A stretch of DNA of 24,845 bases from Candidatus Aerophobetes bacterium Ae_b3b (lineage in GTDB: Bacteria > Aerophobota > Aerophobia > Aerophobales > AE-B3A). Under the pieces are notes generated by a model. The model was not told where the DNA came from and did no database searches. It worked only from the letters and a program-made list of their open reading frames with translations. Both the position numbers and the translations under genes were made by a program. Positions 12,661 to 24,195 of the stretch are shown here, in pieces. Location: the NCBI GenBank assembly GCA_005223085.1, contig NJBP01000030.1, forward strand, positions 1 through 24,845, given 5' to 3'. The first letter of the stretch is position 1. Each line of letters opens with the position of its first letter.

Positions 12661-13257
12661 TCATCCTCTCAGGGGAAGATAAACTACGGTGGAAAGAATT
12701 AAAGGAGGCTCATGAGCCTTTTCATCCTGAGTGCTAATAGTTATCTTTACCGCTTCGGGGAGACTATCATCAGCATTATCCGGCGTTCCCCTTGTTGAAT
12801 CCCAGAATCCTTGCCATTGATCCTGATCCCAGTATGAAAAGGTCAAATTCAAGACCCGCTCGCCAATCATAGCCGTAGCTCCACCGGAAAAGGAATCCAG
12901 GTGAGTTCCTATTCTCCTCCGGAGTCTTTCTTGGGATAAACTGTATTCAATCTTCCGAAGATCATATTCCCCCGTGGTGTTAGGTGTGTTAGAGGCAGAA
13001 ACGAAGGTCAGCAAAGATTCATTGCCCTTGAATATGAGGTGAGGATCGCCCCGGCTGATAAAAGAAGCCTTTATTTCCCGACTCATTAAGTCTAAAATTA
13101 TCCGGGCATTTTGATACATCCTGGTGCGGGATTCTCCTTTCTGCCAAGCAGAGGAACTTCCCAAGAAGACCCGATAAAGAGCTCCCATCAAGATCACCAC
13201 AATGGCGCAGCTCACTATGATCTCAACCAGGGTGAAACCCCCTTCTTTTTCACTCAT
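12661..13257 (-). CDS. Prepilin-type protein, GspJ/PulJ-like minor pseudopilin
   Basis: The N-terminus 'MSEKEGGFTLVEIIVSCAIVVILMGALY' (split here into a short leader ending in Gly, then Phe+1 and Glu+5, then a hydrophobic helix) is the type III signal cleaved by prepilin peptidase. The remaining ~170 residues contain 'RIILDLMSREIKASFIS' and a beta-rich C-terminal part, as in GspJ-like pilins; length 198 is right for GspJ. An upstream ATG at 13269 adds four residues; neither has a clear ribosome site. Last gene in a four-gene pseudopilin run on the minus strand. Exact assignment to J is from order and length. Confidence 0.78.
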   Translation of the reverse strand: MSEKEGGFTLVEIIVSCAIVVILMGALYRVFLGSSSAWQKGESRTRMYQNARIILDLMSREIKASFISRGDPHLIFKGNESLLTFVSASNTPNTTGEYDLRKIEYSLSQERLRRRIGTHLDSFSGGATAMIGERVLNLTFSYWDQDQWQGFWDSTRGTPDNADDSLPEAVKITISTQDEKAHEPPLILSTVVYLPLRG

Positions 13258-13318
13258 TAGCTTTATCATAACTTATAAATTTTAGAGGGACCCCTCCTGG
13301 GGGCTTTTCCTCCCCTTT

Positions 13319-13759
13319 CTAATTGTACCTGGCTAAATAAGTAACTAGCTCTAAATACTGCCGAGGATTATTTCTATCTTCAGCCCCGGCTTTCCCATAT
13401 AAGACCCTCACCCTTACCTTCCGAAGATTGGGAGTTTCAGTATCCCACCACCCCACCTCGTAGCCATATCCCTGGTATTCTTCGAACTTCCCTTCCCCTA
13501 TCCCCTGACCGTTAGTATCCTCAGGAAGGGCCTCACTTAAATCATCATATCCTCTTCTTTTTATCTCCTCCATCAGTGTTTGCCCTAAAAGAGAAGCAGT
13601 TGAATACCTCTCTACTTTCTGCTCTATTTCAAGACCCAGAGGAAAAACTCTCACTATCATCAAAAGACCACCGGAAAGAATGGCCGTAGCCAGGATAACC
13701 TCAACCAGAGCAAAACCCATCCCAGCTAAATATGTCTGTTTCTTAAAACCCTTCTTCAA
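13319..13759 (-). CDS. Prepilin-type protein, GspI/PilV-like minor pseudopilin
   Basis: 146 residues. The leader 'MKKGFKKQTYLAGMG' precedes Phe+1 with 'FALVEVILATAIL' (Glu+5), followed by one hydrophobic helix and a soluble domain with 'TASLLGQTLMEEIKRRGYDD', a GspI-like helix. The start is TTG at 13759, overlapping the GspH stop as TTGA, so translation is probably coupled; no strong Shine-Dalgarno is visible. It belongs with the flanking H- and J-like genes in a pseudopilus tip complex of a type II secretion or type IV pilus-like machine. The ATPase, platform protein and secretin are not in this window. Confidence 0.78.
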   Translation of the reverse strand: MKKGFKKQTYLAGMGFALVEVILATAILSGGLLMIVRVFPLGLEIEQKVERYSTASLLGQTLMEEIKRRGYDDLSEALPEDTNGQGIGEGKFEEYQGYGYEVGWWDTETPNLRKVRVRVLYGKAGAEDRNNPRQYLELVTYLARYN

Positions 13760-14259
13760 TGTTTTTTCGGGTAAACCCTGATATAACCAGTAGTAGAGCT
13801 AATGGTAATGGTGTACCACCTTCCACTACCATTGTTCTTAAGATAGATAGAGCCAGTCTCAGCCGTTCCTTGAGGATAGAAAGAAAGACTGTCATCATCA
13901 GGATCATCAAATTCCACAATTCCATCCTCCTCCTCCCTTTTCCAAAGATCAGGATCAGCAAAGGCTACATTCTCTAAAAGTGAATGTTTTCCTTCTATCA
14001 CCATCTTCTCTTCGTCTTCAATCCAATATTTTCTTCGAGCCGGATCAAAGACAACCCTGTATTCTCTTCTTTTAGTTATGGAGAGCCGACGTGCCCATCT
14101 TAGAGTAGAAGCTATATCCTCGGCTGAGTTTTTCAGACGGCTCCGGGAGAGGAAACTACCCACAGACAAAATACCCAAAAAGACCACCACGCTCACTACA
14201 CCCAGTACCACAATCAGCTCTATCAAAGTGAATCCAGATGTAGATTTTCGAGGTATCAT
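13756..14259 (-). CDS. gspH: GspH/FimT-family pseudopilin
   Basis: 167 residues with leader 'MIPRKSTSG' and 'FTLIELIVVLGVVSVVVFLG', the canonical prepilin cleavage site and membrane helix. The middle reads 'AEDIASTLRWARRLSITKRREYRVVFD', which is the GspH/FimT helix plus first strands, and the C-terminus ends 'TGYIRVYPKK', typical of FimT-type proteins. It lies 9 bp after the GspG-like gene and overlaps the GspI-like gene by four bases. Predicted minor subunit of the pseudopilus, inserted in the inner membrane before assembly. Confidence 0.85.
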   Translation of the reverse strand: MIPRKSTSGFTLIELIVVLGVVSVVVFLGILSVGSFLSRSRLKNSAEDIASTLRWARRLSITKRREYRVVFDPARRKYWIEDEEKMVIEGKHSLLENVAFADPDLWKREEEDGIVEFDDPDDDSLSFYPQGTAETGSIYLKNNGSGRWYTITISSTTGYIRVYPKKH

Positions 14260-14268
14260 CCCTCTTAA

Positions 14269-14931
14269 CTACCAGTTATTAATATCATCCTCTAAATACC
14301 CATCAGATGAACCTGGACCATTGGCATTCAGCTCATCTATAACTCCATCCCCATCATCGTCTATCTCATTCTGGCAATAATCACCATCCTCAAACTCATC
14401 ACCGTCAACGCCACTGCTCCCGGTCTTTCCATCAGATCCCTTAGAATAGATATCGTAGCTACTTTTGTTATGAAAGGGAGGGGAGGTAAAAGGAATTCCA
14501 TCAAGATCAGCCGCATAGAAATAGATATGAACCCGGTCATTTCTCCCTTTATGCCAGGGATCGAGTAGCTCACCAGCCTCATTCACCTCACTTTTTTTGA
14601 ACTCCAGGTAAGGCCCGGTCCATTCCGGATCCTCCCAGATAGGGTCCTCAGGGGCAGGCGAGAGAGCTTCTCTTAGAGAAGCAGAACCCCTCTCATCAGG
14701 GGGATAATGTCCGGTGTCAATTTTATACATGCTTATGGCTGTCTCTAACTGAGCCATGAAAGACTTTGCGGCGGCTCTTTTTGCTCTTCCGGTAGCCTGA
14801 AGGAAGTTGATGGTGGCAACCGCCGATAAAATTGCAATAACTGCCACCACGATCAAAAGCTCCAATAAGGTAAAACCAGTCTCTTTTCTTAGCCTGCTCG
14901 CGACTTTATCCTGTCTTATCTTCCTCCTCAT
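14269..14931 (-). CDS. gspG: GspG-like major pseudopilin with Asp-rich C-terminus
   Basis: About 220 residues. After a basic leader ('MRRKIRQDKVASRLRKETG') comes 'FTLLELLIVVAVIAILSAVA', the prepilin signal, then 'KSFMAQLETAISMYKIDTGHYP', the GspG helix and its typical Tyr-Pro end. 'GPYLEF...DPWHKGRN' and 'YDIYSKGSDGK' match the GspG beta/calcium-binding region. Unusually, the C-terminus adds an EF-hand-like stretch, 'NEIDDDGDGVIDEL', and further acidic residues, probably an extra calcium site. The start is taken at ATG 14931, which gives a sensible leader; the frame runs up to 15033 but that extension has no leader character. First gene of the pseudopilin run. Confidence 0.82.
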   Translation of the reverse strand: MRRKIRQDKVASRLRKETGFTLLELLIVVAVIAILSAVATINFLQATGRAKRAAAKSFMAQLETAISMYKIDTGHYPPDERGSASLREALSPAPEDPIWEDPEWTGPYLEFKKSEVNEAGELLDPWHKGRNDRVHIYFYAADLDGIPFTSPPFHNKSSYDIYSKGSDGKTGSSGVDGDEFEDGDYCQNEIDDDGDGVIDELNANGPGSSDGYLEDDINNW

Positions 14932-14983
14932 CTTTCCATATAACAAGCGGTATTTCTTCCTCCCAGCTCTTTTATTGTATTGC

Positions 14984-15012
14984 ACCTTAATACATTCACT
15001 TAAGAAAGTCAA
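14984..15012 (-). promoter_or_regulatory. Possible promoter for the pseudopilin genes
   Basis: On the minus strand TTGACT (15007-15012), 17-base spacer, TAAGGT (14984-14989). The -35 is good, the -10 weak; TACAAT at 14974-14979 is a better -10 but lacks a matching -35. It lies between the TnpB element and the GspG-like gene. Confidence 0.3.
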
Positions 15013-15057
15013 CCCCAAAATCAGTCTTGACATATCACACTTGGGAATATAATTAGA

Positions 15058-15200
15058 ACAGTTATACCTCAGGAACGGTGACTACTCCCCTCCCTAACGG
15101 AAGGGGCTTCTTGGGACAAGTCCCAGGCTCTGTAGCCCCAGAGCCAAAATATTTCTGGAGGCATTAATATCTCTATGCAGACGAATACCACAAACGGGAC
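15058..15200 (-). ncRNA. Predicted TnpB guide RNA (omega/reRNA), 3' part
   Basis: Three hairpins lie back to back at the 3' end of tnpB: GGCTCTG/CAGAGCC (15126-15145, 7 bp), TGGGA/TCCCA (15112-15125) and CCCCTTCC/GGGAGGGG with a GTTA loop (15087-15106, 8 bp with one G-U pair). The last is followed on the minus strand by AGTAGTCAC (15078-15086), which resembles IS200/IS605 right ends. In this family the guide RNA overlaps the tnpB 3' end and its guide is the flanking DNA just past the right end, here about 15058-15077. The 5' limit given is arbitrary. Confidence 0.5.
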
Positions 15201-16212
15201 ATCTATGCCAACGAGTGGACAGTTTCTTTTTGACTACTGTCCCACATTGGCTACAGATTTGACTTGTGTCTCGTGGGTCAATTGCTATGAACCTACGGCC
15301 AGCCTCTTCCGCTTTACTCGCAAGTGCTTGGGCAAATTGATTCCACGCTGCATCTACGATAGATTTTGCTAGGAAGTGATTTCTCATCATCCCCCTAATG
15401 CTCAATTTCTCAATGCAAATAATACCAAAACGATTAACAATCTTCCGAGACTCTTGATGGATAAAATTATGACGCTTATTAGAAATTCTTTCGTGAGTAC
15501 GGACAATTACCTTTTTAGCCTTCTGTCTTTCAGGAGCACCTTCAGACTGTTTAGACAGTTTTCTTTGGGCTTTAGCAAGCGCTTTCTCATCAGTCTTAAA
15601 AAAACGGGGATTAACGATTTTTTCTTTAGTGGAAAGAGTAGCAAAATTCTCAAGTCCAACATCAATTCCAACGGCTTTATTGCTTTTCCGCAAGGGTTTC
15701 GGTTCATATTCAACAGATATGCAAGCATACCATTTGCCAGCTTGTCTTCTGATAGTGCAGGTTTTAGGAATACCGATAATAGGACGGTGAAGTTTAATCT
15801 TAATAGAACCTATTTTGGAAAGAAAAAGATGGTTATCATCAATCTTCCAGCCAAAGCTTGCTTGTTTATAGGTGAAACTGTCATAGCGGTCAAATCCCTT
15901 AAAACGAGGATAGCCAGGTTTTTGTCCTTGTTTAACTCTACGGAAAAAGTTTTGAAAAGCTTTGTCTATCCTATCAGCAACATTTTGGAGAACTTGAGAA
16001 TAGACTATGTTAAGAGAAGGACGCTTTTTCTTCAAGGCAGGAAGAGAATTGCATTGCTGAAAATAGGTGATGTTTCTTTTGTCTTCTTCCCAAGCATTTT
16101 TACGTTCTTCGAGGAAATGATTATAAAGCCAGCGGCACTCATTGAGCTGTTCTTGAAGAATCCGTTGTTGTTTCTTAGTCGGAAAGAGTCTATATTTAAG
16201 GGTTTTTCTCAT
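15094..16212 (-). CDS. tnpB: RNA-guided nuclease TnpB (IS605 OrfB)
   Basis: 372-residue TnpB, full length. The N-terminal OrfB helix-turn-helix region reads 'MRKTLKYRLFPTKKQQ'. The RuvC nuclease triad is complete: Asp184 in 'VGIDVGLENF', Glu268 in 'IICIEKLSI' and Asp348 in 'LHRDINASRN'. A C4 zinc ribbon (Cys320, Cys323, Cys338, Cys341) is inserted before the last Asp. TnpB proteins are programmable DNA nucleases guided by a transposon-end RNA that help retain the element; they are the ancestors of Cas12. The stop codon falls in the loop of the right-end hairpin. The start is ATG at 16212, with AAGG 12 bases upstream. All residues needed for activity appear present. Confidence 0.95.
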   Translation of the reverse strand: MRKTLKYRLFPTKKQQRILQEQLNECRWLYNHFLEERKNAWEEDKRNITYFQQCNSLPALKKKRPSLNIVYSQVLQNVADRIDKAFQNFFRRVKQGQKPGYPRFKGFDRYDSFTYKQASFGWKIDDNHLFLSKIGSIKIKLHRPIIGIPKTCTIRRQAGKWYACISVEYEPKPLRKSNKAVGIDVGLENFATLSTKEKIVNPRFFKTDEKALAKAQRKLSKQSEGAPERQKAKKVIVRTHERISNKRHNFIHQESRKIVNRFGIICIEKLSIRGMMRNHFLAKSIVDAAWNQFAQALASKAEEAGRRFIAIDPRDTSQICSQCGTVVKKKLSTRWHRCPVCGIRLHRDINASRNILALGLQSLGLVPRSPFR

Positions 16213-17075: not shown

Positions 17076-18713
17076 ATGTATCGAGAAGAAGAAAGCGTTG
17101 AACTTCGCCAATACTGGGAAGTTCTTTGGCGACACAAATGGATCGTTCTTCTGGCAGTAGTTGTCGTTTTTGTGGGGACTATGATTTTTACCTATCGACA
17201 AGCCCCCGTTTATAGAGCATCAAGCAAGATTCTCATCAATCCCCCTCCCTCTCTTTACCCTTACACCGCGCCGGGACAGATTTTGACCTCTCAGGGTCTA
17301 CCTTATTCCCGGGATCTACCATATTACATTAACTATCTGGAAAACTACAGGGTCTGGCTGACCAGCGAAACCATGATGGATAAGATCATAGAGCGGGTAA
17401 AGTCCCTCTATCCTGAGTCGGAAGAAATACCGTTCAGTATGGGGGCCAGCGTAATCAGAGACACCAGCATTTTCGCTATCGGAATTGAATCCGGCGACCC
17501 CGAGCTATGTAAAGTAGCAGCCAATGCCACCGCCCAAGTTTTGGTGGAAGAAAACCAGAGAATGTTCGCCGCCGGCCTAAAAACGGCCAGCGAAATGATG
17601 AAAAAACAGATTCAAACCCCTTTAGAAGAGTTAAGTAAACTTCTGCCCGGCTCAGAGTTACCAGGCAAAGGCGTAGGTACAACGAAAGGCGAAAAACCAG
17701 AAAGTCAATTATGGCAGGCCGCTCAGCTCAACAACGTCCGTATTATGGATTATGCTAAAACTCCTCGCTCTCCCATAAAACCTCGCAAAAAGCTAAATGC
17801 CATGTTAGGACTACTGGTGGGATTTATGTTAGGAGGTGGCCTAGCATTCTTACTAACATACCTGGATACCTCTGTTCGAACTATTGAAGATGTAGAAAAA
17901 TACTTTTCCTGGCCGGTTTTGGGTATTATTCCCCGATTTGATCGCACTAATGACGAGCCTTCCGGAAAGACTTCTCCCTCAGAAATTGAACCAGTGGTAA
18001 GTAAATATCCAAAATCAGTCTCTGCTGAGGCCTACCGAACCTTAAGAACCAACATTCAACTCTCCAATCTGGATCACCCACCCAGATTTTTAGTGATAAC
18101 CAGTGCCGGTCCCCTGGAAGGAAAATCAACCACCGCCCTTAATCTGGCGCTGGCTTTGGCCCAAAGAGAAAGTAAGGTTCTCTTAGTCGACGGTGACCTG
18201 CGAAAGTCCACTATTCACAAAGCCCTACACTTAGATAACTCTACCGGACTAGCCGATTCAATCCTTAATCACGGCAGCCTGGAAGCAGCCATTAAGCGGC
18301 TTGATAGCGTGGCTAACCTATCGGTTTTAACCAGTGGATCGGCGCCGTCTAACCCTTCTGAGCTTTTAGGGTCGAGCGGGATGAGGTCATTGGTGGAGCA
18401 AGTAAAAAAAGAGTATGACTATGTGGTCTTTGACACCCCACCTCTTATGTCCGTTAGCGATGGCGCTGTTTTAGCCTCCCAGGCTGATGGAATCCTAATA
18501 GTTATCAGCCCCGGCAAATTAAGAAGAGAAATCGCCCGTCATACCAAAGAGCTACTTGACCGAATTGGGACTCCTGTCCTGGGTTGTGTCCTCAACGGTG
18601 TCGAGCCCAGTCACAGCAATTACTATTACTATTATCATTACTACCATTCCTACGCTGATTCAGAAGGAAAAGAAACCATCCGCGAGCGAAAAAAGAAAAA
18701 GAAAAATTTGTAG
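17076..18713 (+). CDS. Wzc-like polysaccharide co-polymerase/tyrosine autokinase
   Basis: 545 residues, one membrane protein combining a Wzz-type chain-length domain and a BY-kinase. TM1 is at about 22-40; a periplasmic part follows; the 'PRSPIKPRK' motif precedes TM2 (about 240-263). The cytosolic kinase has Walker A 'SAGPLEGKSTT' (343-353), Walker A' 'LLVDGDLRK' with Asp372 and Asp374, Walker B 'VVFDTPP' with Asp453, and a C-terminal tyrosine cluster from residue 516 ('NYYYYYHYYHSY'). BY-kinases regulate export of capsule or exopolysaccharide by cycles of autophosphorylation. The periplasmic region is short compared with Wzc of about 720 residues. The start has GGGAAGG seven bases upstream. 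Its presence in a sigma-54 unit recalls exosortase-linked EPS loci. Confidence 0.93.
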   Translation: MYREEESVELRQYWEVLWRHKWIVLLAVVVVFVGTMIFTYRQAPVYRASSKILINPPPSLYPYTAPGQILTSQGLPYSRDLPYYINYLENYRVWLTSETMMDKIIERVKSLYPESEEIPFSMGASVIRDTSIFAIGIESGDPELCKVAANATAQVLVEENQRMFAAGLKTASEMMKKQIQTPLEELSKLLPGSELPGKGVGTTKGEKPESQLWQAAQLNNVRIMDYAKTPRSPIKPRKKLNAMLGLLVGFMLGGGLAFLLTYLDTSVRTIEDVEKYFSWPVLGIIPRFDRTNDEPSGKTSPSEIEPVVSKYPKSVSAEAYRTLRTNIQLSNLDHPPRFLVITSAGPLEGKSTTALNLALALAQRESKVLLVDGDLRKSTIHKALHLDNSTGLADSILNHGSLEAAIKRLDSVANLSVLTSGSAPSNPSELLGSSGMRSLVEQVKKEYDYVVFDTPPLMSVSDGAVLASQADGILIVISPGKLRREIARHTKELLDRIGTPVLGCVLNGVEPSHSNYYYYYHYYHSYADSEGKETIRERKKKKKNL

Positions 18714-18771: not shown

Positions 18772-19068
18772 ATGAATTACTTGACGAAATCCTTTGTCAA
18801 GGACCCCAACATCGTTTCCAGAAAAATTGCTGGTGAGGTTATCTTGGTTCCTATTAGAAACAATGTAGGAGACTTAAAAAATATTTACACTCTAAATGGA
18901 GTGGCTACACGAATCTGGGAACTCATAGACGGCAAAAGGCAACCCGAGGATATAAAAAAGGTAATTTTAGAGGAATACGAGATAGAGGAAGAAGAGGCTG
19001 AAAAGGATTTGCTGGAATTTTTATCTCAACTAAAAGAAATAAAGGCAATCGTAGCCAGTGATGTATAA
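18772..19068 (+). CDS. PqqD-family peptide chaperone (RiPP recognition element)
   Basis: 98 residues matching PqqD-like RiPP recognition elements: 'NIVSRKIAGEVILVPIRN' (beta strands), 'IYTLNGVATRIWELIDGKRQPEDI' (helix with the family-typical 'LN..A..IWE.IDG'), then 'EEYEIEEEEAEKDLLEFLSQL'. Such proteins bind the leader of a precursor peptide and present it to a radical SAM enzyme. It lies 58 bp after the tyrosine kinase gene and 11 bp before the radical SAM gene. A ribosome site (GGGAGG, with AGAGG closer) precedes the ATG. No other pqq genes are nearby, so PQQ synthesis is not implied. Confidence 0.92.
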   Translation: MNYLTKSFVKDPNIVSRKIAGEVILVPIRNNVGDLKNIYTLNGVATRIWELIDGKRQPEDIKKVILEEYEIEEEEAEKDLLEFLSQLKEIKAIVASDV

Positions 19069-19079
19069 CTCGAATAAGT

Positions 19080-20261
19080 GTGAAGAAGGGAAGGGAATTT
19101 CAGGTGGAATGCCCTTATATTTCTCAAATTAGGTATGGTGAATTTGGCAAACGTATCCACAATAAGGCAGTAATTAAAAGGATTCCAATTAATGGGTCAA
19201 TCGAACCTACTTTTCGCTGTAACCTTCGCTGTGCTCACTGCTACTGCAATTTGCCCTTAAACGACAAAGATGCACGTGAGAAAGAACTGAAAGCCAAAGA
19301 AATCTTCGATATCCTAGATCAAATTGCAGAAGCTGGATGTCTGTGGCTCCTCATAACTGGAGGAGAGCCTCTGGTGCGTGAAGATTTCTTAGATATTTAT
19401 ACTTACGCAAAAAAGAAAGGATTCATCATTACGCTGTTTACTAATGGAACACTTCTCACTCCCCAAATTGCTGATTATTTAGCCGAATGGCCACCATTCG
19501 CTGTAGAGATCACCCTATATGGTATAACTAAAGAGACTTATGAAAAAGTGACCCAAACTCCTAATTCTTTTGAACGCTGCGTAAGAGGCATTAACTTACT
19601 CTTGCAACGAAAGATCCCTTTGAGACTGAAAACTATGGTAATGAAATTAAACCAAGACCAGGTCTGGCAAATAAAAGAATACGCCGAAGAATTAGGGGTG
19701 GAATTTCGTTTTGATTCAGTACTTAATCCTAGATTAGACGGGTCCAAAGATCCTTGTGATTTGAGATTATCTCCCGAAGAGGTTGTGGAGTTAGATTTGG
19801 CTGATAAGAAAAAATTTACTCAATGGCAGGAGTTCTCTAGCAAATTCCGGGAACCTGTTGGGTCTGACAAGCTTTATTATTGCCTGGCAGGCATTTCTTC
19901 ATTCCATATAGATCCGTATGGAAAGTTGAGTGTCTGCATGATGTCGCGTTTTCAGAATTGTGATCTACACAATAATTCGTTTCGTGAGATGTGGAATCAC
20001 CGTATCCCTCAGTTTTTAGATTTGAAACCCGTGCGTAGTTATCCATGCGGTGAATGCGACCTAATATCACTATGTGGTCAATGTCCGGGCTCGGCCTGGC
20101 TAGAGACAGGCAGTCCCGAAACTCCGGTTCAATATCTATGTCAGTTGGCTCACTTAAGAGCACGAGCGTTTAGAAAGGAGATAAATGAAAAAAATGGCCA
20201 AAAAGTCGAAGTCTGTGAAAGTAAAAAAGCCGTATCAGAAACCACTAATAAATCAAGTTAA
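19080..20261 (+). CDS. Radical SAM/SPASM peptide-modifying enzyme
   Basis: 393 residues. The radical SAM cluster motif 'CNLRCAHC' (Cys47, Cys51, Cys54) binds the SAM-cleaving [4Fe-4S]; 'LITGGEPLVREDF' is the SAM-binding GGE motif. The C-terminal SPASM domain has Cys268, 'GKLSVC' (Cys286), 'CGECDLISLCGQC' (323, 326, 332, 335) and Cys354, enough for two auxiliary clusters. Such enzymes install thioether, C-C or similar cross-links on RiPP precursors. The GTG at 19080 has no clear ribosome site; GTG at 19104 after GGGAAGGGAA is an alternative start. The conserved domain ends near residue 367, yet the frame runs on for about 25 residues over the start of the peptide gene (77-nt overlap). Confidence 0.93.
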   Translation: MKKGREFQVECPYISQIRYGEFGKRIHNKAVIKRIPINGSIEPTFRCNLRCAHCYCNLPLNDKDAREKELKAKEIFDILDQIAEAGCLWLLITGGEPLVREDFLDIYTYAKKKGFIITLFTNGTLLTPQIADYLAEWPPFAVEITLYGITKETYEKVTQTPNSFERCVRGINLLLQRKIPLRLKTMVMKLNQDQVWQIKEYAEELGVEFRFDSVLNPRLDGSKDPCDLRLSPEEVVELDLADKKKFTQWQEFSSKFREPVGSDKLYYCLAGISSFHIDPYGKLSVCMMSRFQNCDLHNNSFREMWNHRIPQFLDLKPVRSYPCGECDLISLCGQCPGSAWLETGSPETPVQYLCQLAHLRARAFRKEINEKNGQKVEVCESKKAVSETTNKSS

Positions 20262-20373
20262 GCTTGCCACCGATGAGATGCTCATAGCCGGTTGCAAAAT
20301 GGGGGGTGGAACAGTCTTCAGTCCCAACAACACCAACTGTCAGCCAGCCAAGTGTGTGGACCCAGGGACATAG
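20185..20373 (+). CDS. Putative RiPP precursor peptide (62 aa, three Cys)
   Basis: The ATG at 20185 follows AAGGAG by four bases, inside the 3' end of the radical SAM gene but in another frame. The product has a basic, Lys-rich leader ('KKPYQKPLINQVKLATDEML'), then 'IAG', then a Gly/Asn/Cys-rich core 'CKMGGGTVFSPNNTNC' and 'QPAKCVDPGT' (Cys37, Cys52, Cys57). The leader style 'KPYxKPxIxxVxLxxDE' and the small-residue step before the first Cys fit precursors for PqqD/SPASM systems. The C-terminal residue is Thr, notable beside a kinase-like gene. An imperfect inverted repeat (CGGA 20374-20377, TCCG 20395-20398) follows the stop and may reduce readthrough into the next gene. The function of the mature peptide is unknown. 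Confidence 0.75.
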   Translation: MKKMAKKSKSVKVKKPYQKPLINQVKLATDEMLIAGCKMGGGTVFSPNNTNCQPAKCVDPGT

Positions 20374-20439: not shown

Positions 20440-21333
20440 TTGTTGAAGTCTATGAAACAGTTGAGCAGCTTCACATTAGAGGTAGCAGAGATTGTTTTCT
20501 GCATCAGTAGCGATTTTCCATTTGATGGCTCAAATTTTGGAAAGGTATACGATGATTTTCTCTCTGAGAAAAAGGCCAACGTTTGTATTCATGTTCAACG
20601 GAACGCGGTCCCTTCGCTTAATATCAAAAAAGGTAAATTGGTCTTGGATTCTGGCAAGACCTGGAGTGTGTATGAAAGCCAACAAAAGTACATTTTCACT
20701 TTTAAATCACCCGCCTTAGGACAGATACCTTACAGCGTCGCCGTTTTTACACCTACCTTCCACAGAGGTAAAGTCTACATACGACCCGTGACATCCCAGG
20801 ACAAGCTTTTACCCAATCCTATGCTCTATCCCCTTTTTGAATTGTTAATGATTAACCTCCTATGGCGAAGATATGGACTTATGTTCCATGGCTGCGGAAT
20901 TAACAGCAGTGGATGTGGGTATTTATTTTTGGGTAATTCAGCCCATGGTAAGTCCACCACTGCTAGACTATGGGCTGAAGACCGAGGTACAGTTCTTAAC
21001 GATGATAGAATTGTGGTAAGAGAAAAGGGAAGAAAGTTCTGGATGTACGGTACGCCCTGGCACGGGGACTTTACCAAAGTCTCATCCCAAAGGATACCAA
21101 TTCACAAAATATTCTTTTTGCGACATGGAAAAGAAAACTCAGCAGTTCCTAGGGAAGGAATAAAAGCAGTCTCACTGCTACTCACCAGATGCTTCCCCCC
21201 CATTTGGGATAAGAAGGGGATGAGCTTCACTGTGGATTTTTGCCGTCGTCTGGTAGAGAAGGTACCATGCTATGAACTGGATTTTGTGCCAGATGAGAAA
21301 GTAGTAGATTTTGTGAAAGGGGTCAGGTCTTGA
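20440..21333 (+). CDS. HPr kinase-like (HprK-related) protein
   Basis: 297 residues. After a variable N-terminal half, the HprK-type core is clear: 'MFHGCGI' (His150), P-loop 'LGNSAHGKSTTARLW' (Lys171), 'LNDDRIVV' (Asp188, Asp189) and 'GTPWHGD'. HprK homologues in RiPP and exosortase-linked loci are thought to phosphorylate a peptide or sugar rather than HPr; in paeninodin-type lasso loci the homologue phosphorylates the C-terminal Ser. No HPr gene is here. The start is probably TTG at 20440 or 20443, after AAGGA; ATG 20452 is further from the ribosome site. The stop codon lies in a repeat copy (21320-21343). Confidence 0.87.
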   Translation: MLKSMKQLSSFTLEVAEIVFCISSDFPFDGSNFGKVYDDFLSEKKANVCIHVQRNAVPSLNIKKGKLVLDSGKTWSVYESQQKYIFTFKSPALGQIPYSVAVFTPTFHRGKVYIRPVTSQDKLLPNPMLYPLFELLMINLLWRRYGLMFHGCGINSSGCGYLFLGNSAHGKSTTARLWAEDRGTVLNDDRIVVREKGRKFWMYGTPWHGDFTKVSSQRIPIHKIFFLRHGKENSAVPREGIKAVSLLLTRCFPPIWDKKGMSFTVDFCRRLVEKVPCYELDFVPDEKVVDFVKGVRS

Positions 21334-21380: not shown

Positions 21381-21896
21381 ATGCCGAAGAAAACAGAAAC
21401 ACTGAACTTAAAAAGAGAGGATTTTGCCTCTATTGCTCAAGAGGTGCTGGGTCGCGGAAGAGCCCTCAGATTTAAAGCCAAGGGAGGAAGCATGTCTCCC
21501 TTTATTCGAAACGGAGATGTGGTAGAAGTAGTGTCGGTCAATGGCAAGATAAATCTCGGAGATATCATCCTCTACCGCTCTTCCTACGGGAACCCGGTTG
21601 TCCATAGAGTGATCCGGAGGAGCAAAGAAAGCGTCATCACCAAAGGAGACTCTTTACCCAGCTCTGACCAGCCCGTGCTATCTAGGCAGGTGCTGGGCCG
21701 CGTGGTAACTATACAAAAAAATGGATGGCGCATAAGACTGGGGACTCCGACAGGAAGACTCCTCAATGTTCTCCTGGCTACAATCTCTCCTTTTTCTTTT
21801 CTCATTTATCCTTCGCTTAGATTATTGAAAAAACCTATTAGTCCCTTTACCAGTAATGCATCAAACCCTTGTCTCTTCAGGCTTCCTCATAGCTAA
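21381..21896 (+). CDS. S26-family signal peptidase-like protein
   Basis: 171 residues. The motif 'GGSMSPFIRNGDVVEV' holds the nucleophile Ser37 of signal peptidase I-like enzymes (SMxP). 'NPVVHRVI' (His75) and 'VITKGDS' (Asp90) point to the Ser/His/Asp type seen in SipW/Sec11 rather than the Ser/Lys bacterial type. There is no N-terminal anchor; instead a hydrophobic stretch (about 127-149) near the C-terminus could be the membrane segment. It may remove the leader of the peptide encoded upstream, or process another exported protein. The start has no strong ribosome site. It is 12 bp ahead of the nucleotidyltransferase gene. Confidence 0.87.
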   Translation: MPKKTETLNLKREDFASIAQEVLGRGRALRFKAKGGSMSPFIRNGDVVEVVSVNGKINLGDIILYRSSYGNPVVHRVIRRSKESVITKGDSLPSSDQPVLSRQVLGRVVTIQKNGWRIRLGTPTGRLLNVLLATISPFSFLIYPSLRLLKKPISPFTSNASNPCLFRLPHS

Positions 21897-21908: not shown

Positions 21909-23117
21909 ATGTATATCCGTCCCGAAGATCAGCTGTTACTGCAGTGTGCGAGAACTAAATTAAACGAGGATGACCAAGATAAAATCACGAAACTGGTAAA
22001 TAATGGCCTGGACTGGGACTATCTCTTGCAGATGGGCAAAGATCATAGTCTGGGACCATTGTTATACTATCACCTGCGCCAGATTAACGATGATCATCAA
22101 ATTCCTCAGTCCATTATGAATCAGTTCCATGACATTTACCATGGCAATCTGGCCCGGAATCTCCTTTTATATGATGAGTTAAGCCGGGTTTTAAAATCCT
22201 TCGAGGAAAAAGAAATCCCGGTGGTGGTGGTCAAAGGACTAGCTCTAGCAGAGCTCGTTTATAAAAACATTGCCCTGAGGCCAATGGCAGACGCTGATTT
22301 ATTGGTTCAAAAGAGAAGCTTACCAGAAGTAATGAAAACTCTTTTCAAACTGGGATTCGAAATACTACCTGAAGAGAAGCGGATAACCATAAAATACATG
22401 AATGAATTGCATCTGGTCAAGCATCAGGAAAATGTAAAGTGGCTTGCGAGTCTAATAATTAATATCCACTGGGATCTGACAGCTCCGATTAGATTTAAGG
22501 GGACAACAAAAACCGATCCCCAACAAATGATGTCAAGAGCTCGGCCAGCAAGAATAGCTTACAGTAATATTTTGCTTATGACACGGGAAGACCAAATACT
22601 GTGGGTTATTTATCATGCCACTTTTCAGCATCCTTTTATTGGCCTTCTCCAACTGTGTGATGTGGCTGAATTAATCAAACTAAAAGAAAATAAGCTTGAT
22701 TGGCAGTCCTTGCTGAAGATCTCAAAAAATAGAAGAATAGCAAGTGCTACTTACTACCTGCTCTCTTCGGCTAAAAAACTTCTGGGAGCTCCTATCCCCA
22801 ACTGGGTACTCCAAGCTCTTGCCCCAAACCTACTTAAGAGAAGCCTATTGGATACTTTGGTCATCAAAAGCGGCTTTTTAATCAAGTGCCCGACTCACTC
22901 GGTAGCCTCTCGATATCTTCTTCAGATATTGATGTTGGATAAAATGATCGATACACTCTCTTTGCTCTGTAAGGCAGTCTTTCCTCCTCCTAACTGGCTT
23001 GCGGCTTATTATGATCATACGAGGTCAAAAAACCTATATTTCTCCCACTTTATCAACCTTTTCACAATCCTCCTGGCCGGAATAAGAGATATCCTAAAAG
23101 TCTCAGGCAAAAGGTAA
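21909..23117 (+). CDS. PF14907-type nucleotidyltransferase family protein
   Basis: 402 residues. The key block around residues 103-135 reads 'VVVVKGLALAELVYKN' and 'RPMADADLLVQ', the signature (KG...R...DxDLLV) of the uncharacterised nucleotidyltransferase family NTP_transf_5. A later 'INIHWDLT' fits the family's 'xHW.l' element. Homologues sit next to HprK-like genes in lasso peptide and exosortase-related loci; their substrate is not established and could be the peptide. AAAGGA lies eight bases upstream of the ATG. Last gene of the tight plus-strand run. No transglutaminase or asparagine synthetase gene accompanies it. Confidence 0.88.
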   Translation: MYIRPEDQLLLQCARTKLNEDDQDKITKLVNNGLDWDYLLQMGKDHSLGPLLYYHLRQINDDHQIPQSIMNQFHDIYHGNLARNLLLYDELSRVLKSFEEKEIPVVVVKGLALAELVYKNIALRPMADADLLVQKRSLPEVMKTLFKLGFEILPEEKRITIKYMNELHLVKHQENVKWLASLIINIHWDLTAPIRFKGTTKTDPQQMMSRARPARIAYSNILLMTREDQILWVIYHATFQHPFIGLLQLCDVAELIKLKENKLDWQSLLKISKNRRIASATYYLLSSAKKLLGAPIPNWVLQALAPNLLKRSLLDTLVIKSGFLIKCPTHSVASRYLLQILMLDKMIDTLSLLCKAVFPPPNWLAAYYDHTRSKNLYFSHFINLFTILLAGIRDILKVSGKR

Positions 23118-23605: not shown

Positions 23606-23992
23606 TTACTCTGATCCCTTTTTCTCTTCTATAAAGATTACTTTTTCCAATCTTTCAAAATGTGGGTCGGAGGTCACTACTGAGCATTCTTCAGAAAGTG
23701 CAGTCGCATAAACCAAGGCATCAGCCATAGGAAGTTTATGCTTTAAACTAACATCTGCCGCGAAGAGCGCCAGGTTGGGTGTAAGGGGAACGATTTTTGT
23801 TTCATGAAGTCTAGCAACTAGTCGAAGGGCTGATTCCTCATCTAAAGCTTGCTTTAATTTCTTATAAACTTCATACACAATGACCACAGGGGTGATAACT
23901 TCATTTGAGGAACGAAGATATTCAGCGTATTTATCCGCCAATGGTCCTTCCCTAAGCCACTCAATCCATCCAAAGGAATCTACTACTATCAT
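23606..23992 (-). CDS. vapC: PIN-domain toxin, VapC-type ribonuclease
   Basis: 128 residues with the complete acidic PIN active site: Asp5 ('VVDSFGWIEWL'), Glu41 ('VIVYEVYKKL'), Asp91 ('LPMADALVYATA') and Asp109 ('VVTSDPHFE'). VapC toxins cleave specific tRNA or rRNA and halt translation when free of antitoxin. The ATG overlaps the vapB stop by four bases (ATGA), so the pair is translationally coupled, with the antitoxin first. The frame looks intact. It is convergent with the small membrane protein gene. Confidence 0.93.
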   Translation of the reverse strand: MIVVDSFGWIEWLREGPLADKYAEYLRSSNEVITPVVIVYEVYKKLKQALDEESALRLVARLHETKIVPLTPNLALFAADVSLKHKLPMADALVYATALSEECSVVTSDPHFERLEKVIFIEEKKGSE

Positions 23993-24195
23993 ATCCGTTC
24001 CTCATCTTCACGAATTTCCCTCATCTCTATTCCTTTTGCCATCCCCCGCAGTTCCTCCAGAGAAGGAACTGGGACTAGAGAAATGACCCCATTCTTGACT
24101 ATTACAGCAAACTTTTGGCCTTTCTCTAATCCAAGATTTTCTCTTACTTCTCTAGGTATCACAATCTGGTATTTGGGAGAAAGAACGACTTCCAT
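23989..24195 (-). CDS. vapB: AbrB/MazE-type antitoxin, VapB
   Basis: 68 residues. The N-terminal swapped-hairpin DNA-binding domain reads 'LSPKYQIVIPREVRENLGLEKGQKF', typical of SpoVT/AbrB antitoxins; the C-terminal part ('VPSLEELRGMAKGIEMREI') is the kind of extended segment that wraps the toxin. AGGAGG sits eight bases before the ATG at 24195. The complex usually represses its own promoter; a perfect-consensus promoter with a flanking inverted repeat lies just upstream. Confidence 0.93.
   Translation of the reverse strand: MEVVLSPKYQIVIPREVRENLGLEKGQKFAVIVKNGVISLVPVPSLEELRGMAKGIEMREIREDEERI

Follow-up and report, generated by a model that had tools for sequence, protein, structure and literature searches.

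The window analysed here, a stretch of 24,845 nucleotides from Candidatus Aerophobetes bacterium Ae_b3b, contains an operon in the order Wzz/tyrosine kinase, RRE, radical SAM/SPASM enzyme, peptide, HprK-like kinase, signal peptidase homologue and NTP_transf_5 protein. The first gene (17076–18713, +) encodes a Wzz chain-length/tyrosine autokinase (TIGR01007, above cut-off) and is exopolysaccharide context outside the RiPP machinery; polysaccharide genes were also found at the related loci L034 and L074. It is followed by a stand-alone RRE of the PqqD family (18772–19068, +; PF05402, E = 4.2e-18, above cut-off) and by the radical SAM/SPASM maturase (19080–20261, +; PF04055, E = 4.6e-22). The true start of the latter is probably the GTG at 19104 rather than 19080, because its relatives begin with MECPHIP or a similar sequence. 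Downstream of the precursor peptide gene (20185–20373, +) lie the genes for the HprK-like kinase (20440–21333, +), an archaeal-type signal peptidase I homologue (21381–21896, +; TIGR02228, 55.3 bits against a cut-off of 51.85) and the NTP_transf_5 protein (21909–23117, +; PF14907, E = 2.7e-51).

Several other features of the window were recognized by eye on the minus strand: a four-ORF run with type IV pilin-like N-termini, probably type II secretion pseudopilins (12661–15033), a complete-looking TnpB/OrfB-like ORF with a C-terminal zinc ribbon (15094–16212), and adjacent PIN-like and AbrB-like ORFs resembling a VapBC toxin-antitoxin pair (23606–24195).

The precursor gene and its conservation

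The precursor ORF starts with ATG behind the ribosome site aaaggagataa and encodes 62 amino acids. Its leader has a Lys-rich N-terminus and the RRE-binding-type motif Y17-QKP-L-I, while the core contains the conserved residues Cys37-Lys38, Cys52 and Cys57 and ends in Gly-Thr (Thr62). The 62-residue ORF, strong ribosome site, Lys-rich leader and three cysteines pointed out in the earlier note were all present as described. Its characterization of the core as Gly/Asn-rich did not hold as a family trait; the conserved elements are CK, a later Cys pair and terminal Gly-Ser/Thr.

The last 77 nt of the radical SAM ORF are shared with the precursor ORF, and this overlap could point to a chance frame running across the 3′ end of the radical SAM gene and intergenic DNA. 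The probability of such a chance origin is practically negligible. Homologous frames were found in many genomes, both adjoining related radical SAM genes and at loci such as L032 and L034, where the radical SAM stop codon lies upstream of the peptide start and the genes do not overlap; unlinked copies occurred in four genomes. A profile built from 27 relatives, with the window peptide left out, matched the 20185–20373 ORF at E = 4.5e-15, and the runner-up among 296 window ORFs reached only 0.45. The closest pairs of relatives, where sites are not saturated, gave a dN lower than dS; pairings with the window sequence were saturated. A chance ORF was rejected on the basis of the profile match and the dN/dS relation. 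It had also been noted earlier that the proposal would fail if the frame were unconserved or if only the radical SAM frame were conserved over the overlap. The latter was rejected as well, since the peptide leader is conserved in this region whereas the radical SAM tail past HLRARAF is not shared. On this comparison, the ORF is a real RiPP precursor gene, beyond chance.

Peptide family, locus organization and distribution

Relatives were collected by a radical SAM search of 386 genomes, which returned enzymes of up to 69% identity, and the named loci come from an alignment-based scan of species genomes. The related-locus search with the single radical SAM sequence gave no match; the alignment query gave the loci. 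The curated family set comprised 28 group-1 peptides, picked with profiles that include the tail. The leader motif [Y/W/F]xxPx[I/L/V/C] was present in all 28 members, with a single F variant, and was followed by roughly VxLxxEEAVLxxCK. The first core Cys was likewise kept in 28 of 28. Exactly three core cysteines were counted in 23 of the 28 (24 if two leader cysteines of the L039 peptide are not counted), and four group-1 peptides had only two.

The C-terminal residue was Ser or Thr in 26 of the 28 members, against a core background of 16% (binomial 5e-19, relatedness of members ignored), the exceptions being L078 and L084. Gly occupied position −2 in 82% of members, and the remaining tail positions were Ser/Thr in 4–29%. 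The terminal frequency of 93% is somewhat favoured by the use of tail-including profiles for curation; a search with the leader motif only gave Ser/Thr ends in 35 of 54 ORFs, with unrelated ORFs left among them. The alignment proposed in the earlier note thus recovered, in the 28 curated members, both conserved cysteines and terminal Ser/Thr. Group 2, from multi-radical SAM or related loci, contained 17 peptides with mostly WxKPEL-type leaders, 16 of which end in Ser/Thr. Four clostridial loci (L112, L117, L118 and L120), which may represent a third branch, combine radical SAM and HprK-like genes with Cys-rich ORFs of greater length whose last two residues are Asn-Ser or Ser-Ser.

These peptides have the characteristics of RiPP precursors, namely a short precursor with a conserved leader and a variable core, encoded with modifying enzymes. 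They also have those of RRE-dependent RiPPs: a stand-alone PqqD-like RRE is combined with a [Y/W]xxPx[LVIAFY] leader motif (YQKPLI in the window). The earlier statement that the peptide matches no nameable RiPP class stood insofar as no Pfam or NCBIfam model matched the peptides, but the LPPs (PMC13381572) are closely related and lack a radical enzyme. In a comparison of the peptide profile with PDB sequences, the top match was the TfuA lasso leader, with an E-value of 0.46 that is not significant by itself. The ranthipeptide motif NxxC (N49-x-x-C52) was considered and rejected; it recurs in L034 and is not conserved elsewhere.

The usual gene order at related loci was RRE (PqqD), radical SAM, peptide, HprK-like kinase and archaeal-type signal peptidase, in some cases followed by an NTP transferase. 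The RRE gene lay immediately 5′ of the radical SAM gene at 27 of 29 group-1 loci, and the precursor was placed between the radical SAM and HprK genes at 24 of the 26 loci with a linked precursor. A signal peptidase was encoded nearby at 24 of 29 loci and a same-strand NTP transferase at 9 of 29, with contig ends truncating several loci. Nearly all group-1-like radical SAM loci carried an HprK kinase; kinase-free loci mostly belonged to other radical SAM families.

Of 386 genomes, 16 contained the group-1 radical SAM enzyme, and these 16 were also the ones matched by the precursor profile; in four of them the precursor does not adjoin the radical SAM gene and had been left out of the profile. 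In G060, the sole radical SAM match is broken (45% identity), and the single precursor, which ends in Gly-Ser, lies on a different contig near an HprK-like ORF. The other three genomes have a radical SAM locus with no adjacent precursor and carry their precursors elsewhere: eight intact and two degenerate copies in G057, three in G202 and two in G334. All 13 dispersed intact copies in these three genomes end in Gly-Ser and have three cysteines. Loci L035, L040 and L041 therefore have no linked precursor because the precursors are unlinked in those genomes.

The family spans eight or more phyla, with named loci from Deltaproteobacteria, Omnitrophota, Nitrospinae, Gemmatimonadetes, Chloroflexi, Nitrospirae, Aminicenantes and Verrucomicrobia/Kiritimatiellia. 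A peptide search across 17 genomes of the window's phylum had the window as its sole match. The 16 phylum-mates of the window genome contained neither the precursor nor a close radical SAM enzyme, and the nearest radical SAM sequences (65–69% identity) came from genomes outside the phylum. This pattern suggests horizontal transfer.

Predicted maturation of core and tail

The alignment of the radical SAM enzyme revealed an invariant CxxxCxxC motif at positions 47, 51 and 54, invariant C268, C286, C323, C326, C332 and C335, and a nearly invariant C354. The SPASM Pfam match was sub-threshold (17.0 against 21.5 bits); the cysteine pattern and the structure model nevertheless mark the protein as a radical SAM enzyme with SPASM or twitch auxiliary clusters. 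The folds nearest to the model were the peptide maturases SkfB, PqqE and SuiB, with MoaA also among the top matches. We infer that the enzyme alters the Cys-containing core, most likely by forming the thioether cross-links for which the three cysteines had already been suggested as donors.

Radical SAM/SPASM enzymes can also make C–C bonds, epimers or decarboxylations. The peptide could be a RiPP precursor whose core the enzyme epimerizes, decarboxylates or cross-links through C–C or C–O bonds, with the cysteines forming disulfides or binding metal. The curated families nearest by score (NirJ2, AhbD and MftC, each far below its cut-off) are compatible with such chemistry, the structural matches include PqqE and SuiB, which form C–C bonds, alongside the thioether-forming SkfB, and no conserved thioether acceptor position was found in the peptide cores. 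However, strong conservation of three cysteines in an otherwise variable core is expected if the cysteines are modified, and the complete SPASM cysteine set fits thioether synthases, so that we regard non-thioether chemistry as a substantial but minority possibility.

The HprK-like kinase has the P-loop GNSAHGKST together with His150, Lys171 and Asp188/189. Across 80 kinase domains, His150 was kept in 79, and Lys171 and an acidic residue (Asp/Glu) at position 189 in all 80. The AF2 model of the kinase (pLDDT 88) was nearest in fold to HprK/P and PEPCK. The classical target of HprK/P homologues is HPr, and the protein might be a regulator or act on another target, with Gly-Ser/Thr serving as a recognition signal for the radical SAM enzyme, an exporter or the NTP transferase. 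More distant HprK-linked peptides with other ends, Gly or Asp (L059–L062 and L064), would agree with this. Such a role is rather unlikely: the kinase almost always adjoins the precursor or is fused to the radical SAM enzyme, the tail ends specifically in a hydroxyl residue, with Ser and Thr interchangeable, and PadeK provides a precedent for action on a C-terminal Ser. The conserved His150, Lys171 and acidic residue 189 match the His-Lys-Asp-Asp motif of lasso-peptide tail kinases, among which PadeK phosphorylates a C-terminal Ser; PsmN adds a hexose (PMC9266682). By analogy, the terminal Ser/Thr of the precursor is the expected phosphorylation target of the HprK-like kinase.

Fusion of the radical SAM enzyme with the HprK-like kinase, with full domains in one ORF, was found at eight group-2 loci and ties both activities to one pathway. 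These loci (L085, L093, L097, L098, L101, L104, L106 and L110) contain several radical SAM genes and WxKPEL-type precursors; L101 belongs to a cultivated relative, Desulfosediminicola flagellatus. In the signal peptidase homologue, Ser37, His75 and Asp90 were invariant among 17 aligned proteins.

Comparison thus establishes, at the level of sequence, the conservation of the precursor with its RRE motif, cysteines and tail, the catalytic residues, the enzyme fusion and the co-occurrence. We propose, with a probability of about 0.75, that the ORF is the precursor of a new radical SAM RiPP family with a lasso-like tail module, matured by the enzymes of the operon. The [Y/W]xxPx[I/L/V] leader motif is of the type bound by stand-alone PqqD-type RREs, and the RRE (18772) would hold the leader and offer the SPASM radical SAM enzyme (19080) its substrate. 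This enzyme would modify the Cys-containing core, and the kinase (20440) would phosphorylate the C-terminal Ser/Thr, Thr62 in the window. The NTP_transf_5 protein, where encoded, may put a further group on the phosphate, by analogy with PsmN/LppN. Finally, the signal peptidase (21381) would take off the leader, perhaps directly in front of the first core Cys. Once mature, the peptide is probably located at the cell surface or associated with exopolysaccharide.

The dispersed precursors provide a first lead to function. In G057, 8 of 10 precursors lie at most 266 bp downstream of a gene for a protein with a shared C-terminal domain of ~95 residues that occurs 25 times in this genome (chance ~6e-22 under a simple uniform model that ignores duplication of gene pairs). 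No Pfam or NCBIfam model matched this domain. The neighbouring proteins in G057 carry SBBP, DUF7948, TSP_3 or RCC1 repeats, and those in G202 have FG-GAP repeats or a C25 peptidase. The dispersed loci of both genomes (L162–L171) combine near-identical precursor cores (CKSDTGAGPNQSTCIIPQCFNPGS in G057) with adjoining large surface-protein genes. The domain was absent from the window's genome at the search threshold, which limits the surface-protein link to a subset of the family. As a highly speculative idea, one radical SAM/kinase set might mature many near-identical peptides encoded behind genes for large repeat-rich surface proteins with this C-terminal domain, and each peptide, once cross-linked, might be attached through its phosphorylated, further modified tail to these proteins or to exopolysaccharide.

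Relation to known systems

The closest resemblance is to the LPPs, whose machinery combines SpI, RRE, HprK and an NTP transferase with a YxxP leader motif (PMC13381572, Nat Commun 2026). The window operon encodes this same machinery set, with a stand-alone RRE, an archaeal-type signal peptidase, an HprK-like kinase and an NTP transferase in a polysaccharide-locus context. In contrast to LPPs, which are described without radical SAM enzymes (the word "radical" is absent from the text), are restricted to Bacillota and are phosphorylated at core Ser3 rather than the C-terminus (PMC13381572), the present system has a SPASM radical SAM enzyme, three conserved core cysteines and a conserved C-terminal Ser/Thr, and occurs outside Bacillota. 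The leaders follow YxKPxIxxVxLxxEEAVLxxCK instead of the LPP consensus YxxPxVLxHQxIxFETxxS. LPP loci also encode an MsbA-like exporter (PMC13381572); no same-strand LSGGQ ABC ORF was found at the 29 group-1 loci, some of which are cut by contig ends.

Paeninodin and pseudomycoidin share with the present system an HprK-like kinase with a C-terminal Ser (Thr in the window), a nucleotidyltransferase, a PqqD-type RRE and a [Y/W]xxP leader. However, no lasso cyclase or B2 peptidase was identified by Pfam among the operon genes, which instead encode a radical SAM enzyme and a leader peptidase of the signal peptidase type. Sactipeptide and ranthipeptide systems (SkfB, CteB, SCIFF) likewise use a SPASM or twitch radical SAM enzyme on a Cys-containing core. 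Here the RRE is a separate protein, a tail kinase and NTP transferase are present, and the core has three cysteines, not the six in ~45 residues of SCIFF; a review of sactipeptides and ranthipeptides mentions neither kinase nor phosphorylation for them (PMC8326336). SynChlorMet (Scm) also combines an HprK-like ScmC-related protein, a PqqD homologue and radical SAM/SPASM enzymes, whereas the window has a single radical SAM gene. Identity with SynChlorMet, prompted by the ScmC match, was rejected: none of the ScmC/D/E/F equivalogs scored above its curated cut-off, and scores were far below for ScmC (27 of 125 bits) and ScmE (81 of 400).

A search of the open literature, with subscription papers and preprints outside its scope, found no RiPP system that pairs a radical SAM enzyme with an HprK-type kinase. 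The system thus resembles LPPs and paeninodin tail chemistry and adds a radical SAM core step; as judged from gene content, a RiPP family that joins a tail phosphorylation module to radical SAM modification of the core appears to be new. The interpretation of the earlier note is supported on every point open to sequence analysis.

Two RiPP chemistries reported separately would meet here in one conserved operon: radical SAM modification of the core, and phosphorylation of the terminus combined with leader cleavage by a signal peptidase. The operon spans at least eight phyla, and most of the bacteria concerned are uncultured. The precursors now supplied belong to a family that has no Pfam or NCBIfam model and, with their conserved cysteines and terminal Ser/Thr, offer a defined substrate for a widespread pair of SPASM radical SAM enzyme and HprK-like kinase.
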